Source of the DNA: a bacterium
GTDB lineage: Bacteria > Verrucomicrobiota > Verrucomicrobiia > Limisphaerales > UBA11358
Direction: 5' to 3'
Length of the DNA stretch: 64,000 nt
NCBI GenBank assembly: GCA_021817945.1
Contig: JAKAFL010000013.1
Location: forward strand, 1 to 64,000
The position numbers and the translations under genes are program-made. Shown one piece after another: positions 10,815 through 57,492 of this stretch; position 1 is the first letter of the stretch; each line of letters starts with the position of its first letter. Below the pieces are notes generated by a model, which made no database searches, was not told the origin of the DNA, and saw only the letters and a list, made by a program, of their open reading frames with translations.

Positions 10815-10920
10815 GCCCCAACCCCCTCCCGGGGATGACGGGATTGAACGTCGGCAGTGGGCGGTGGAACCCGCCCCTGCCACATTCAACCCGCGTCGGT
10901 TGGCAGCCTTGCTGACTTGA

Positions 10921-11083
10921 AACCGAAAAACGAAAATCAAAAGGCCAATCTGCCCCAATCTGCCGGGCGCAAACTCGTTGAAAAAATTTCACCAAACCGC
11001 TTCGGGTGTGATTTCGATTTTTCCAAAGAGTTTCCGCTCCAGTATCTTGCCGCATCTTGACCCTTTCCATTTCGCTTTTCGGG
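10921..11083 (-). repeat. Fold-back repeat, copy 1 (full, inverted)
   Basis: Full-length copy (163 bp) in the opposite orientation to copies 3-6. Ends are AACCGAAAAACG and CGCTTTTCGGG. TTGA lies on both sides (10917-10920 and 11084-11087), a likely 4-bp target duplication. The interior keeps the TTCGGG-TGTG centre and the GCATCTTGACCC arm. It occupies almost half of the 345-bp gap between the DUF2723 gene and grpE, leaving about 75 bp for a grpE promoter. Confidence 0.85.
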
Positions 11084-11159
11084 TTGAAATAACCCAACCA
11101 ACCGTTGCCGAAACCGGCGCCTTTTGCTATTTTGACTGGCTGAAAATTTTATTAAATCC

Positions 11160-16887: not shown

Positions 16888-16896
16888 ACATCTGAG

Positions 16897-16975
16897 CCCG
16901 AAAAACGAAATTCAAAAGGCCAATCTGCCCCAATCTACCAGGCGCATCTTGACCCTTTGCATTTCGCTTTTCGGG
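16897..16975 (-). repeat. Fold-back repeat, copy 2 (internally deleted)
   Basis: 79-bp copy in the same orientation as copy 1. Both ends are intact (CCCGAAAAACGAAAT and ATTTCGCTTTTCGGG), but the central 80-85 bp is missing. It sits between pabC and the L,D-transpeptidase gene. Confidence 0.8.
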
Positions 16976-17020
16976 CTAAAACGATCTTGGCGGATGCATT
17001 GCGCCGGGTAACATTCGTTT

Positions 17021-21434: not shown

Positions 21435-22029
21435 GGGCGGAAAGCCCTGAGGCAGGAACGGAGTGTGCCCCTGATGGAGGCATTGCACGGACGCATCCAG
21501 GAAATCCGACAGCAAATGGCGCCGGGCGGTAGGCTGGCGCAGGCATGCGACTATGCGCTGAGGCAGTGGTGCCGGGTGAGCGTGTATCTGGCCCGAAAAG
21601 CGAAATGGAAAGGGTCAAGATGCCGCAAGATGCTGGAGCGGAAACTCTTTGGAAAAATCGAAGCCATACCCGAAGCGGTCTGGCGAGATTTTCCCAATGA
21701 GTTTGCACCCAGTAGATTGGGGCAGATTGGCCCTTTGAATTTCGTTTTTCGGGTCTAGAGCACGGGAGGGTGGAAACAGATTCGAACTGGTGTGAAGGGG
21801 CGATGAGGCCGGTGGCGTTGGGCCGGAAGAACTGGCTTCACATAGGCAGCCCTGAGACGGGGCCCAAAATGGCGGCGATCGCCTCGATCGTGGAGACGTG
21901 CCGCCGATTAGACGTGAACTTGCGGACCTATTTGATGGATGTCCTGCCCCGGCTTGGCGATTGGCAACCACACGGGTGGCGGAGCTTACGCCCGTCGCTT
22001 GGAAAGCGGTTCACCTCAAAATCTCCTGA
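21435..22029 (+). pseudogene. IS66-family transposase (TnpC), carboxy-terminal remnant
   Basis: Two separated pieces of an IS66 DDE transposase. Piece 1 (21435-21591) reads 'GRKALRQERSVPLMEALHGR' to 'ALRQWCRVSVYL'. Piece 2 (21759-22029) reads 'HGRVETDSNWCEGAMRPVAL' then 'GRKNWLHIGS', the family's final catalytic region, and ends 'HLKIS'. Fold-back repeat copy 4 lies between them. Removing it and one copy of the 5-bp duplication restores the frame 'VYL-EHGRVETDSN' exactly. A further one-base loss near 21970 shifts the frame against the second remnant at 56938-57150. The amino-terminal two thirds are missing, so it is dead. Confidence 0.85.
21592..21753 (+). repeat. Fold-back repeat, copy 4, inserted in the IS66 gene
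   Basis: 162-bp copy from CCCGAAAAGCG to CGTTTTTCGGG. Its two arms (about 66 bp each) are imperfect reverse complements, roughly four positions in five, around a centre of about 25 bases. Flanks are TCTGG (21587-21591) and TCTAG (21754-21758), a 5-bp target duplication with one later change. This copy gives the cleanest proof that the repeat moves, because the interrupted reading frame is known. Confidence 0.9.
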
Positions 22030-22362
22030 CATCCCAGCAGTCTATCACAGCCATAAAGCCTCACCATACGGGGTTGCTGACACGAATACAAATCAACGAC
22101 AGAAATGACAGGCACGAATTGCACCGTGGACGCCGCCCGCAACGGCCCGGAAAAGCCAAAACAGCTTTTAAGAAAAGAAAGGCTTATTGATCCAATTTCC
22201 AAACCAAAGAAAATTGGGCAAATCGGTTCCTTACCCATCAAATTCCTGCTTTTCGCAGGGCACCTTTCAGGCCAGACTTGAATTAATAACAGTCGTTCGG
22301 CGTTTGCCGCAAAATGCTCCAATAGTAAGGCTAAATTGAATCTTTTTCGCCGCTGATCAACC
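22030..22362. other. Decayed IS66 end and lhgO upstream region
   Basis: The IS66-like 3' flank runs to the motif GGTTGCTGACACGAATAC at 22072-22089, which recurs at 44291, 45934 and 56938 and is probably the terminal inverted repeat of the element. From 22090 to 22362 no gene or clear promoter is seen. Confidence 0.5.
22072..22089 (+). repeat. IS66-type end motif, copy A
   Basis: GGTTGCTGACACGAATAC, 43 bp after the transposase stop codon. The same motif with 1-2 changes lies at the same distance from the other IS66 remnant (copy D, 56938-56955) and at both ends of the Fic segment (B and C). Confidence 0.65.
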
Positions 22363-23568
22363 ATGACTTCAAATTCTTTCGACATGGCCGTAGTGGGAGG
22401 TGGAATTCTGGGGCTGGCCACTGCCTTTCGATTGCTGGAAAAGCGGCCAGGACTGCGGCTTCTGCTCATTGAAAAGGAGATCCGGCTCGCCGGCCATCAG
22501 ACCGGCAACAACAGCGGCGTACTCCATTCCGGCCTCTACTACAAGCCGGGTTCGGCCAAGGCGCGTCTCTGCGTTTCAGGCTTGAGGGAAATGGTGCAAT
22601 TTTGCCAAACCCACGGGGTGGCACATGACATCTGCGGAAAAATAGTCCTGGCCACCCAGGCCGATCAATTGCCCCGGTTGGAAACCCTCTGGCAACGGAG
22701 TCATGCCAATGGGATGCTGGGCCTGCGACGCCTGGACCCGCCGCAAATCAAGGAAATCGAGCCGCATGCCAGCGGTGTTGCGGCAATCCATGTTCCACAG
22801 GAAGGCATCGTGGATTATCCCGCCGTTTGCGAAACCTTGGCGCGCTTGATTCAACATAATGGAGGCGAAATACGGCTGGGCACCCGGATGCTTCGTTTTG
22901 TTCATCAGGATGGGCAGTCCATCCTTGCCACCACTGCGGGCGATTTCCACACCCGGTTCATTGTGACTTGCGGCGGTTTGCATGCGGACCTCCTTGCACG
23001 GGCTTCAGGTTGCCAACCTTCCGCCAGGGTGATTCCATTCCGTGGTGAATTCTACCAACTCAGGGCAGACCGCCAGTATTTGGTTCGTCACCTTATCTAC
23101 CCGGTTCCAGACCCGCGATTCCCCTTTTTGGGAGTGCATCTTACGCGCCTCGTCCGCGGCGGCATTGAAGCGGGTCCCAATGCTGTCCTCGCTCTCGCCC
23201 GGGAGGGTTATGGCTGGACTTGCATCAACCCGGCCGATTTGGCCGGCTCGCTCCTTTATCCGGGTCTATGGCGGTTTTTGGCCCGGTATCCCACCATGTG
23301 CACCTACGAGATATACCGCTCATTGTCCAAGTCTGAATTCACGCGGTCCATCCAAAAACTGGTGCCGGAAATTCAGGAAAACGACCTGGTCCCGTGCAGA
23401 GCCGGGGTTCGGGCCCAACCCATGCTGCCCAATGGACATCTTGTGGAGGATTTCTGCTTTGAGGAAAAGCCAGGCCAATTGCATGTTCTCAATGCCCCGT
23501 CCCCGGCCGCCACGGCATCACTGGCTCTCGGCGCGGAGATTGCAGAAAAAGCTCTTGCCAGGCTTTGA
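22363..23568 (+). CDS. lhgO: L-2-hydroxyglutarate oxidase/dehydrogenase
   Basis: FAD enzyme of the DAO family that oxidises L-2-hydroxyglutarate to 2-oxoglutarate at the membrane, a metabolite-repair step. 401 residues: Rossmann FAD site 'MAVVGGGILGLATAFRLLE' (8-26), 'IEKE' ending the second strand, 'HQTGNNSGVLHSGLYYKPGS' (the LhgO-specific flavin segment), and the carboxy-terminal 'RAGVRAQ' with 'HVLNAPSPAATASLALG'. All match LhgO (YgaF) rather than glycerol-3-phosphate dehydrogenase. Start ATG 22363. Fold-back repeat copy 5 begins directly after the stop codon. Confidence 0.92.
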   Translation: MTSNSFDMAVVGGGILGLATAFRLLEKRPGLRLLLIEKEIRLAGHQTGNNSGVLHSGLYYKPGSAKARLCVSGLREMVQFCQTHGVAHDICGKIVLATQADQLPRLETLWQRSHANGMLGLRRLDPPQIKEIEPHASGVAAIHVPQEGIVDYPAVCETLARLIQHNGGEIRLGTRMLRFVHQDGQSILATTAGDFHTRFIVTCGGLHADLLARASGCQPSARVIPFRGEFYQLRADRQYLVRHLIYPVPDPRFPFLGVHLTRLVRGGIEAGPNAVLALAREGYGWTCINPADLAGSLLYPGLWRFLARYPTMCTYEIYRSLSKSEFTRSIQKLVPEIQENDLVPCRAGVRAQPMLPNGHLVEDFCFEEKPGQLHVLNAPSPAATASLALGAEIAEKALARL

Positions 23569-23730
23569 CCCCGAAAAGCGAAATGGAAAGGGTCAAGATG
23601 CGGCAAGATACTGGAGCGAAAACCCTTCGGAAAAATCGAAGCCATACCCGAAGCGGTCTGTGAGATTTTTCCAACGCGTTTCCGCCCGGTAGATTGGGGC
23701 GGATTGGCCTTTCGCATTTTGCTTTTCAGG
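23569..23730 (+). repeat. Fold-back repeat, copy 5, at the lhgO stop codon
   Basis: 162-bp full copy. TTGA occurs on both sides (23565-23568, which includes the lhgO stop, and 23731-23734), matching the target duplication of copy 1. Insertion therefore left the coding sequence intact. It lies between the convergent lhgO gene and ATP synthase operon, next to the atp terminator. Confidence 0.88.
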
Positions 23731-23776
23731 TTGAATCCGGTCCGGCATTTCCACCGGTGTCTGCCCCAGCCAAGAG

Positions 23777-35695: not shown

Positions 35696-36248
35696 AATGG
35701 ATTTGCGTCGGCGCATGCGCGCAGAGCTGGCAAAGGTGAGCCCCGCAGTGCGCCTGGCCGCCTCCCTGGAGGCTTGCGAACGTTTAAAACCCCAACTGCA
35801 CTGCGCCGCAGCCATCCTCTTTTTTGCCCCGCTCCCGGATGAATTGGACCTTTGGCCGGTGCTGGAGGATGCCTTGGCACGCGGCATTTCATGCGCCCTG
35901 CCCAGTTTCAACTCCACCACCCAAACCTACTCCGCCCGGCTTATCACCAATTTGGAAAATCAAATCGTGCCTGGACAATTTGGGGTGCGCGAACCTCACC
36001 CATCCTGCACGGAGATTCCCATGGACCAGTTCAACCTGATTCTCGTCCCGGGAATGGCGTTCGATTTGGAGGGCAACCGCCTGGGAAGGGGATTGGGCTT
36101 TTATGACCGCATCCTGGCGAATATCTCCAGACTCAAATGCGGTGTCTGCCACGATGGCCAGCTCTTCCCCAAAATCCCCTCCGAATCCTCGGATGTACGG
36201 CTGGATTTTGTGCTGACCCCGTCAAAGCTGGTGCGCTGCAAATCCTGA
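35676..36248 (+). CDS. 5-formyltetrahydrofolate cyclo-ligase
   Basis: MTHFS/YgfA family enzyme that converts 5-formyl-THF to 5,10-methenyl-THF using ATP. 190 residues from ATG 35676, with 'KMDLRRRMRAEL' at the start, 'LVPGMAFDLEGNRLGRGLGFYDRIL' (substrate and ATP site) and 'DVRLDFVLTPSKLV' near the end. Residue content and length match the family. It overlaps the last 20 bp of rarA, so the two are coupled. An ATG at 35697 is a possible alternative start. Confidence 0.9.
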   Translation: METKALKMDLRRRMRAELAKVSPAVRLAASLEACERLKPQLHCAAAILFFAPLPDELDLWPVLEDALARGISCALPSFNSTTQTYSARLITNLENQIVPGQFGVREPHPSCTEIPMDQFNLILVPGMAFDLEGNRLGRGLGFYDRILANISRLKCGVCHDGQLFPKIPSESSDVRLDFVLTPSKLVRCKS

Positions 36249-36249
36249 A

Positions 36250-36278
36250 AGCCTGTCTAAAAATTCGGAAAGGTGCTG
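36250..36278 (+). repeat. 29-bp repeat, copy 1
   Basis: AGCCTGTCTAAAAATTCGGA followed by AAGGTGCTG, starting just after the cyclo-ligase stop. 24 of 29 bases match 46096-46124. The flanks differ. It may be the end of a degraded insertion sequence; the family is not recognised. Confidence 0.5.
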
Positions 36279-36490
36279 CGGCTGAGTATTTTGGACTTGG
36301 GCATGACGGAACTGTCGGCACATTCCCGTAGCGGACTGTAACGGCGGCGACAACAAAGCCCCAGTCACAGCACTCCTCCCAATTGAACTGGAGCCAGGCG
36401 GCCCGCCAAGCAAAACTGGCCATAAACTTGGCAATAAACAGTTGCCCCCCAATTCAATTGGATTTAAATTTAACGCTAGGAATTTCGACC

Positions 36491-37603
36491 ATGAAAACCA
36501 AACTGCACTCCCTCCTATTCATCGGGCTGATGCTTCTCGCTGGCGTTCATTCAACCATGGCGCAAGTCACAAATCTGGGTATCGCCCCGGCACCGGGCGG
36601 ACAATCCGTGCTTTACTGGCCGGTGAGCAGCACGAATTACGTGTTGCAGACGACCACGAATCTGGCCACGCCGAACTGGGTGGCTGTGCGCTCGGCTTAC
36701 CCGGTCAATGCGGGGCAGGTAACCAATTCGGCTCCGTCAGGCTTCTTTCGGTTGCAGCCGGTGACAGTGCCGGCAGGCATGGCCTTGGTTCCGGCGGGCT
36801 GGTTTACAATGGGCGACACAGTGGATGGGCTGACCAATGCCATCCCCACCAACATTTTCGTGTCGGCGTTTGTAATGGACGTGAATCTGGTCACTTTTAG
36901 CTTGTGGCAAACGGTGTATAAGACTGCAACCTCCTCTAAAGGTTATGCTTTTGACCATCCCGGCGTGGGCAAGGGGACGAATTATCCGGTGGAGACGGTG
37001 AACTGGTATGATTGCGTGAAGTGGTGCAATGCACGCTCGGAGTTATCGGGACTGACCCCGTGCTATTATACGGATGCGAATTTGACGCAGGTTTATAAAA
37101 CCGGGGATGTGGATGCCGTCTATGTGAACTGGACTGCAAGCGGCTATCGTTTGCCGACGGAAGCGGAGTGGGAGAAGGCTGCTCGGGGCGGGTTGAGCGG
37201 GCTGCGGTTTCCGTGGGGCAACATCATTGATGAAAATCTGGCCAACTACTACGGATTTACCAATAGCTTCAGCTATGACCGAGGCCCCAACGGTAACAAC
37301 TCTATTGCTAGCATCGGAGGAGCGAATCCGGCGACCAGTCCGGTGGGTTCGTTTGATGTGAATGCCTACGGTTTATATGACATGGCTGGGAACGTGAATG
37401 AATGGTGTTGGGACTGGTATGGCACGCCATATGGCCAACCGACCATAAACAACCCAACGGGAGGGCCAGCATCGGGCGTCCGTGTGTTGCGCGGCGGCAA
37501 TTGGTACAACACCGCCGACTTTTCGCGGTGCGCCAATCGCTTCTCCTTCTACCCGAACTATACCGACTTCGGCTTTGGGTTCCGTTGTGTGAGGGGCCTT
37601 TAG
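36491..37603 (+). CDS. Secreted SUMF1/C-type-lectin-fold protein with DGR-like variable end
   Basis: 370-residue exported protein. Signal peptide 'MKTKLHSLLFIGLMLLAGVHSTMAQ'-type (1-25), a short 'NYVLQTTTNLATPNWV' region common in Verrucomicrobiota, then an FGE-sulfatase (SUMF1) domain from 'GMALVPAGWFTMGD' through 'YRLPTEAEWEKAARGG' and 'NEWCWDWYG' to the last residue. The Cys pair that makes FGE an oxidase is absent, so it is probably a binding protein. The end 'GGNWYNTADFSRCANRFSF' then 'YPNYTDFGFGFRC' matches the variable region of DGR target proteins: Tyr, Phe, Ser, Asp, Thr and Gly occupy the places where the template normally has Asn, and 15 of these codons end in C or T. An Avd-like fragment follows 110 bp downstream. 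Confidence 0.75.
   Translation: MKTKLHSLLFIGLMLLAGVHSTMAQVTNLGIAPAPGGQSVLYWPVSSTNYVLQTTTNLATPNWVAVRSAYPVNAGQVTNSAPSGFFRLQPVTVPAGMALVPAGWFTMGDTVDGLTNAIPTNIFVSAFVMDVNLVTFSLWQTVYKTATSSKGYAFDHPGVGKGTNYPVETVNWYDCVKWCNARSELSGLTPCYYTDANLTQVYKTGDVDAVYVNWTASGYRLPTEAEWEKAARGGLSGLRFPWGNIIDENLANYYGFTNSFSYDRGPNGNNSIASIGGANPATSPVGSFDVNAYGLYDMAGNVNEWCWDWYGTPYGQPTINNPTGGPASGVRVLRGGNWYNTADFSRCANRFSFYPNYTDFGFGFRCVRGL
37491..37600 (+). other. Candidate DGR variable region (VR)
   Basis: Codons from GGC-GGC-AAT-TGG to the stop. The exposed positions read TAC AAC ACC, GAC TTT, TTC TCC TTC TAC, AAC TAT ACC GAC TTC GGC TTT, all NNC or NNT, as expected if adenines of AAC/AAT template codons had been replaced. The fixed residues W, A, R, C-A-N-R, P and GFRC sit where they do in other DGR targets. 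No matching template repeat was found in the window. Confidence 0.5.
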
Positions 37604-37927
37604 TTTTTGTCCTTTTACGCTTTAAGCCTTTTGAACCGGAGCGGGGGCGGTCATGCTGAGGGGCAGGCGAACAAAAACCAGCCTCGCGCAGCGGTGAAAT
37701 TACTTTGGGCTAAATTGACACGGCCGGGAGCGACAACTTTTTGACCAAGCTGCAAGACCTGCTGGTCTATTTGATCCCGCAACTGAACAAATTTCCGCGC
37801 AACCAGAAAAGAGCAAACGCGACAAATCAAAAGTAGAAAAACGCAAGCGGGTACCGGTCCAAAAAAGACCAAAGACGGGGTTTTCGATAGAACGTGTGAT
37901 GAAAAGCGGGCGAAAGCGCCGGCACCC
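37604..37927. other. Region after the variable protein
   Basis: Contains the Avd-like fragment and no intact gene. No reverse transcriptase, template repeat or stem-loop typical of an intact DGR cassette could be read here or nearby. Confidence 0.45.
37714..37836 (+). pseudogene. Avd-like (four-helix bundle) gene fragment
   Basis: The open stretch between two stops reads 'DNFLTKLQDLLVYLIPQL' then 'NKFPRNQK', which resembles the first helix and the conserved 'FPR/K-x-Q' turn of the four-helix-bundle accessory protein (Avd) of DGRs. After NQK it leaves the family and stops 8 codons later. There is no start codon. Position directly after a candidate DGR target fits a lost cassette. Short length limits certainty. 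Confidence 0.45.
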
Positions 37928-38098
37928 TTAACGATGCTGGTAATCCGTCATTCCACCCATTCCATTCTCCCAATCCTGCGGAGCGTCCCAGGGGCGGACA
38001 GAGGCGTTGTCAGGCACCGTGCTGGAACATCCCGTGAGTCCCACGGCCATGGCAACGGCAACCAAAAACAAAACCAAAATGGGAAACAACCGTTTCAT
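37928..38098 (-). CDS. Small lipoprotein
   Basis: A 56-residue protein not long enough for standard cut-offs: 'MKRLFPILVLFLVAVAMAVG' followed by 'LTGCSSTVPDNASVRPWDAP'. LTGC is a lipobox, so the mature lipoprotein would be 33 residues beginning at Cys24, with Ser at +2 suggesting the outer membrane. It starts 6 bp after the stop of the coiled-coil gene 38105-38872, in the same operon. 'NASVRPWDAPQDWE' looks conserved rather than random. Function unknown. Confidence 0.75.
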   Translation of the reverse strand: MKRLFPILVLFLVAVAMAVGLTGCSSTVPDNASVRPWDAPQDWENGMGGMTDYQHR

Positions 38099-45951: not shown

Positions 45952-46089
45952 CAAGATGCGGCATGATGCTGGAGCGAAAACTGATTGAAAAAATCAAAAC
46001 CATACCCGAAGCGTTCTGGTGAGATTTTTCCAATGAATTTGCACCCCGTAGATTAAGCCAGACTGGCCTTTTGAATTTCGCTTTTCGGG
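45952..46089 (+). repeat. Fold-back repeat, copy 6 (left end missing)
   Basis: 138 bp, from CAAGATGCGGCATGATGCTG to CGCTTTTCGGG. The first 24 bp or so of the repeat are gone, cut exactly at end motif C. The missing part is not found at the other side of the Fic segment, so this is not a simple insertion. Confidence 0.8.
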
Positions 46090-46427
46090 TTAAGGAGCCT
46101 GTTTGAAAATTCGGAGGGATGCTGTTTTTGTGCCCGAGCCGGAGCGGTTGTGAGGGGGCTTGGCCGAACAGCCGCCGGTGAAGTGGAGCAAGAATGCGCG
46201 TTGGTCACGGCAACCTGGTTTTTGATAGTCAGAAATCAGTTTTTTGCCCCGAGGCATCATTCTTTCGAGTTTGCATTCGCGTCATTTTGAAATACTCTGG
46301 CGGTCAAGACGCACAAGAACAATGGATTAAGTTCTGGATCGCCTGCCGGGAAATGAAGCAACGCCGCCATGCTGAAAAGATATTTCTGGAATGACGCCGC
46401 CCCGTTCTGCTCCAGCCCCGGCGCGGA
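46090..46427. other. Upstream region of the defence operon
   Basis: 338 bp. Holds the second copy of the 29-bp repeat (46096-46124). TTGCAT (46271-46276) and TACTCT (46293-46298), 16 bp apart, are a weak promoter candidate. A 66-codon frame at 46194-46394 has no recognisable features and is not called. Confidence 0.35.
46096..46124 (+). repeat. 29-bp repeat, copy 2
   Basis: AGCCTGTTTGAAAATTCGGA followed by GGGATGCTG; 24 of 29 bases match copy 1 at 36250-36278. Confidence 0.5.
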
Positions 46428-56921: not shown

Positions 56922-57492
56922 CCACGTATAAACAACCGTATCCGTGTCAGCAAGCCCGTCTGGTGCCGGCAGTCTGGCTGTGATAGACTGCCGGGACCTC
57001 AGGAGATTCTGAGGTGAGCGGCTTTCCAAGCGGAGGGCGTAAGCTGCGCCACCCGGGCGGCTGGCCAATCGCCAAGCCGGGCCAGGACATCCATCAAATA
57101 GGCCCGCAAGTTCGCGTCCAATCAGCGGCACGCCTCCACGCTCGGAGCGCAGTTCCATGAAAAGGCCGCCGGGCCATTGAAGCCGGTAAGCTGACGCCAC
57201 ACCGGGCTGGGGCAGGAGATTGGGTACAGGCAAAAAGGCGGCGGCACTGCCTCATCTTTTTTATAATTCCTTTTGAAAGCCAATGCTTTCCAAAATGGCG
57301 GAAGGGGTGGGATTCGTGCCCGAAATTTCAATATTTCATGGCTAAAATACACGATTTCATGGGCAATTCAAGCATATTCCGAAACTGCTCTGGATAACTT
57401 CCTGATACTTTTTGCTGACACTTTTACTGACAGTGCTTCCAATGCAATTAGATGAGATAAGATGTCGAACATCGGGCGACGCCTGGCCATTT
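56922..57492. other. Right border of the accessory island
   Basis: 571 bp. 56938-57150 is an inverted IS66 fragment. From 57151 to 57492 no gene, terminator or promoter is clear; AT-rich sequence at 57330-57440 has no start codon with a family-like product. Confidence 0.4.
56938..57150 (-). pseudogene. IS66 transposase carboxy-terminal fragment, inverted
   Basis: On the minus strand the sequence reads 'CRR' then 'LIGRE/LDANLRAYLMDVLARLGDW'-type text ending 'TPSAWKAAHLRIS', closely matching the end of the IS66 remnant at 21930-22029, and continues into the same 3' flank and end motif D (56938-56955, GTATCCGTGTCAGCAAGC). Only about 60 codons remain. Its end points towards the defence operon. 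Confidence 0.75.

Follow-up and report, generated by a model that had tools for sequence, protein, structure and literature searches.

Orphan DGR targets and transposon-driven decay of DGRs have both been described already. Isolates of Treponema denticola without a reverse transcriptase (RT) or template repeat (TR) retain orphan variable DGR target genes (PMC4891356). In Thiohalocapsa PB-PSB1, DGR loci are degraded by transposons, and IS and MITE-like sequences are found in and around the loci (PMC10907252). A DGR borne by IS66 is not among these cases: the literature that we searched, with incomplete coverage, holds no relevant report of a DGR as apparent IS66 cargo.

Here we describe a gene in a 64,000-nucleotide stretch of a draft genome from the bacterial order Limisphaerales (the window), which is very probably a DGR target stranded by the loss of its machinery and a relic of an element that combined IS66 and a DGR between imperfect inverted repeats. 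As with the T. denticola orphans, a variable target is left without RT and TR, and the T. denticola target TvpA is its closest solved structure; unlike those orphans, this locus shows the route of loss, through the physical remnants of avd and an IS66 transposase and through empty sites in relatives. With Thiohalocapsa PB-PSB1 it shares the survival of targets as mobile elements wear away RT or TR; it differs in that IS66 genes and DGR make up a single block here, whose ends are common to two or three species. In the plasmid collection, the nearest annotated relatives of the RT found in congeners (about 48–50% amino-acid identity) are cyanobacterial-type DGR RTs from plasmids of Fischerella, Nostoc and Microcystis, which belong to a different phylum.

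An intact gene for a secreted SUMF1-fold protein

The open reading frame at 36491–37603 (plus strand) is uninterrupted and encodes a protein of 370 amino acids, in which a signal peptide recognized by eye (MKTKLHSLLFIGLMLLAGVHSTMAQ) is followed by a short N-terminal domain and by an FGE-sulfatase/SUMF1 domain that runs up to the C terminus (PF03781, residues 96–368, E = 1.5e-47). The secreted SUMF1-fold gene described in the initial annotation is therefore confirmed and intact. The best relative in the PDB is TvpA (2y3c, E = 1.7e-27), which ranks above the true formylglycine-generating enzymes, and by sequence the protein has the C-type-lectin/FGE-type fold with the variable region (VR) at its C terminus; an AlphaFold model built from a 20-sequence alignment was too poor for use (pLDDT 45.6). 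In a phmmer alignment to the human enzyme, whose catalytic cysteines we take to be C336 and C341, the catalytic cysteine pair is absent and Asn and Ser occupy those positions, so the protein is not expected to be a formylglycine-generating enzyme. The body of the gene has evolved under purifying selection relative to its orthologue in the congener G027 (dN 0.066, dS 0.18). Phages gave distant matches only, with about 30% identity at the best rank; on viral contigs, 33 loci encode related proteins with 27–60% identity. The second FGE-domain protein of the genome, C95, was considered as a VR carrier and set aside, as it has no template-like or VR-like features.

Change restricted to template adenines

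The VR (37473–37596, plus strand) aligns without gaps to the TR of G027 (L062:5340–5463), and over these 124 nucleotides mismatches fall at 21 of 35 template adenines and at 3 of 89 other positions. Over 116 nucleotides the counts are 20 of 34 adenines and 4 of 82 other bases (Fisher p = 6e-10), which bears out the adenine-specific change proposed at first from the window alone. The cognate pair in G027 behaves in the same way: over 116 nucleotides, TR and VR disagree at 22 of 34 template adenines and at none of the 82 other bases, and over 128 nucleotides they do so at 24 of 36 and 0 of 92, respectively. The 3–4 non-adenine differences between the VR of the window and the G027 TR reflect either a slightly different template of its own or later point mutation.

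When the window gene is compared with the G027 gene, 22 of the 34 sites that are adenine in the TR differ (65%). In the gene body, used as a negative control, adenines differ at 13 of 203 sites (6%) and show no excess over the other bases there (9%). The two parts also differ in how changes are spread over codon positions 1, 2 and 3, with 12, 12 and 2 in the VR and 24, 20 and 42 in the body, where position 3 leads. The C-terminal codons of the target read LRGGNWYNTADFSRCANRFSFYPNYTDFGFGFRCVRGL. Against the G027 template, codons that encode Asn have become Tyr, Thr, Asp, Phe, Ser and Gly, all with NNC or NNT codons, and an Ile codon ATT has become the Phe codon TTT; the template codons are the AAC, AAT and ATT that had been deduced beforehand. 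Across the genus, VR columns have a mean entropy of 1.55 bits at template adenines versus 0.30 elsewhere, values that are uncorrected for the relatedness of the sequences. Four more distant intact systems, found through their RTs (G146, G136, G127 and G267), have TR/VR pairs with 14–21 adenine mismatches and no others in 80 nucleotides. Judged against a cognate-type TR, the gene thus carries the mark of an orphan target: a C-terminal VR that differs specifically at adenines, in a gene whose body has no adenine excess.

An ordinary FGE-family paralogue, with a surface loop that resembles a template by chance and no DGR ever involved, would account for the protein itself. Proteins with the FGE fold abound in these genomes and vary in their C-terminal loops, and C95 is an FGE-domain protein without a template-like pattern. 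Chance resemblance does not, however, predict differences restricted to adenines in the VR only, nor an avd stump in the window, and TR, avd and RT all stand beside the G027 orthologue. That locus refutes a paralogue without any DGR, and we give this explanation hardly any weight. The 85% identity of the window target to this G027 orthologue, with template, avd and RT next to it, instead upholds the original proposal of a DGR target with an orphan VR.

The machinery is missing from the genome

The window belongs to contig C73 of a 99-contig draft assembly of 3.76 Mb that is 94.7% complete, and the locus is internal to this 71-kb contig. In the whole genome, no match to RVT_1 was found up to E = 10 and no relative of the congener RT was found, and neither BLAST nor a 26-base pattern with 3 mismatches recovered a TR. 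The absence of RT and TR noted for the window therefore extends to the whole genome, where the search suggested in the initial annotation has now been run. That annotation had framed its refutation for this genome alone. One of the observations that it named as speaking against it (no template in the genome) is what we find; another, substitutions not limited to template adenines, is not what the comparison with the congener TR gives.

The third component, avd, survives as a stump. Directly downstream of the target, at 37717–37808 (plus strand), about 31 codons of avd (84% amino-acid identity, E = 8.5e-11; 92% DNA identity over 92 nucleotides; a weak match to NF033474) have lost their start codon, ATG having become ACG, and the frame then enters unrelated sequence. 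Of the DGR components, the genome therefore holds neither RT nor TR nor a complete avd. The feature first drawn from 36491 to 37836 rightly included the target; that it also took in this stump had gone unrecognized.

Upstream of the target lies a relic of an IS66 transposase, the last 12 codons and the stop codon of tnpC (36387–36425, plus strand), in which the C-terminal tail reads TGARRPAKQNWP before the stop compared with TGASLPAEENLP in G027. It is followed by the leader of the target gene (36426–36490, plus strand), which was retained from the element; over 36385–36490, identity with the leader in G027 is 79%. As a whole, 36385–37808 is homologous to L062 2571–3998, starting inside the 3′ end of tnpC. 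With a tnpC tail upstream and a broken avd downstream, what remains in the window is the middle of the element, truncated at both ends (36385–37808).

The relic sits in a lineage-specific insertion (36243–37931), absent from relatives, between the genes for 5-formyltetrahydrofolate cyclo-ligase and a coiled-coil protein. Alignment with the sister species G063 (94–96%) breaks off after 36242 and resumes at 37932, G063 having 563 bp of unrelated sequence in the gap, and little or nothing separates the two flanking genes in G019, G010, G028, G066 and G027. The 563 bp in G063 (contig C33; L203 3759–4321) occupy the equivalent intergenic site, which suggests that the site is prone to insertion.

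The left edge of the insertion (36243–36364) is a dispersed repeat of about 120 bp, possibly MITE- or REP-like, of which the genome has 22 further near-full copies (78–85% identity); we rejected its assignment to IS66 sequence. At the right edge (37809–37931), where an intact element would continue with the rest of avd, RT and TR, these are missing and the sequence has no significant match to the elements of G027 or G071. Its likeness to the left end of the element (17 of 22 positions, E = 0.64) was not significant and that identification was dropped. No copy of the element end repeat was found in the window with up to 4 mismatches.

Repeats inside the window are dispersed only, and among those listed none overlaps the VR. 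One family, around CCCGAAAAGCGAAAT, occurs in both orientations at 10917–11089, 16892–16981, 21591–21754, 23564–23736 and 45952–46095. A fragment at 21764–21955 matches the C-terminal part of an IS66 transposase (45% over 64 amino acids) and lies next to dispersed repeats (21880–22060 and 56968–57149).

The initial annotation had left the machinery as either remote or lost. Loss is supported, because the avd beside the target is cut off in place and no RT or TR is present in a genome that is 94.7% complete. If the source were remote, diversification of the target would continue in trans, with RT and TR encoded in the unassembled 5% of the genome or by a structural variant within the population. 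Other DGRs are known to have targets in trans and to occur as intact and degraded variants side by side, and a draft consensus may hide minority cells with an intact locus, as in Thiohalocapsa (PMC10907252). A reading frame that is still intact, a body under purifying selection and the mere 3 non-adenine changes among 89 positions would also suit continued diversification, and the 99-contig assembly leaves room for a remote RT and TR in its missing part. Even so, that missing 5% or so would need to contain an RT, a TR and a functional avd together, given the broken avd at the locus and the lack of an RVT_1 match, a congener-RT relative or a template in the genome, and we consider ongoing diversification in trans improbable. 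No RT, TR or intact avd, an avd stump, a tnpC tail and an insertion absent from relatives together argue that deletion of the machinery left a DGR target stranded.

Intact elements in congeners combine IS66 and a DGR

In G027, a 5.8-kb contig (C314) carries, in order, IS66 genes, target, avd, RT and TR. The RT matches RVT_1 (E = 4e-16), avd matches bAvd (E = 2e-21) and NF033474 (E = 4e-29), and the tnpC of the congener element is of the IS66 family (NF033517, E = 1e-112). G071 has the same arrangement, with a TR that is 99% identical to that of G027. The two elements (L062 305–5721 in G027; L168 7117–12565 in G071) form a common block with 88% identity over 5.4 kb and different flanks, and in both they start and end at imperfect inverted repeats, GTATGCGGCTGACGGTCCAC and GTATCCGCCTGACCGGCCAC, which agree at 17 of 21 positions. 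In both genomes, an IS66 tnpC and terminal inverted repeats thus enclose a DGR. The element ends in G027 and G071 showed no 8-bp target-site duplication, and the outer 8-bp flanks differ at both loci, so transposition itself is something we infer.

The element nevertheless occupies different genomic sites, as shown by the different flanks in G027, G071 and contig C29 of G019. The G019 copy (L081 3904–6749) is 99.86% identical to that of G071 (contig C125; L168 7128–9974) over 2,847 nucleotides from the left inverted repeat; it contains IS66 and the start of the DGR target and then runs off the contig end. Such near-identity reflects either recent transfer or a binning error. Within the element, target bodies of G027 and G071 are 75% identical, as against 95–99% for avd, RT and TR, a divergence that suggests target exchange between cassettes. 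No IS66 of the G027/G071 type was found in the flanking stretch examined beside the RTs of G146, G136, G127 and G267, which belong to other families, and as these more distant relatives lack it, the association of IS66 with the DGR is probably recent. Within the genus, the DGR appears to travel with the IS66 transposase, and probably by means of it.

Recurrent decay across the genus

The genus search set comprised 49 genomes, our own included. These hold six avd loci, of which two are complete (G027 and G071) and four are cut, at codons that differ: about 31 in the window, about 72 and about 20 at two loci in G060, and about 67 in G019. Of the 49 genomes, 15 contain VR- or TR-like sequences but 2 a cognate RT, a contrast that draft assemblies exaggerate. 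At one of the G060 loci (contig C130), the start of avd is joined after codon ~20 to a right-end repeat, a junction of the kind that an internal deletion would leave. In G019 (contig C6; L170 1–1480), the avd cut at codon ~67 is joined to GTGCGGGTTCAAATCC, which by eye resembles a tRNA 3′ end, and a relaxase-like gene lies near the avd fragment on the opposite strand.

Stranding need not have happened where the gene now lies. Recombination or one-ended transposition could have spread the target as a fragment, from the tnpC tail to the avd start, in which case the target would never have had its own RT at this site. Orphan targets are numerous in the genus, some of them in tandem (G031 and G019), and target bodies seem to have been exchanged relative to the rest of the cassette, as this scenario would lead one to expect. 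The fragment ends inside two genes with no recognizable boundary, however, and the avd breakpoints, which differ between loci, fit independent deletions at least as well. We regard spread as a fragment as a less likely history, although it is the alternative that we take most seriously, and we prefer deletion of the machinery at the locus itself.

Discussion

On the preferred reading, the element, or part of it, would have entered between the 5-formyltetrahydrofolate cyclo-ligase and coiled-coil genes. While it was active, and by analogy with DGRs that have been studied, template RNA would have been reverse-transcribed by an RT that miscopies at adenines, and the cDNA would have replaced the VR, rewriting the binding loop or face of the secreted lectin-like protein. 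Deletions on both sides would then have removed the transposase on one side and RT and TR on the other, leaving a single variant frozen in place. The cell probably still produces the protein, which would act as a binder of fixed specificity. In our best reading, the target has become an ordinary gene that preserves this frozen variant, barring machinery in the unassembled part of the genome or in other cells.

For the genus as a whole, we put forward, at roughly even odds of being right, that the complete DGR is cargo of an IS66-family transposon moving between species, and that its machinery is repeatedly deleted while the target survives, so that the genus accumulates frozen, once-hypermutated binding proteins. 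The decay of a DGR becomes physically traceable here, as a single genus offers donor-type elements that are intact, sites that are empty and several stumps of independent origin for comparison. These loci suggest that the diversity made by a DGR can persist in ordinary fixed genes after the DGR itself has gone. They also suggest that DGRs may be transferred from one species to another by a simple IS66 transposon, and such transfer would help to account for their patchy distribution.
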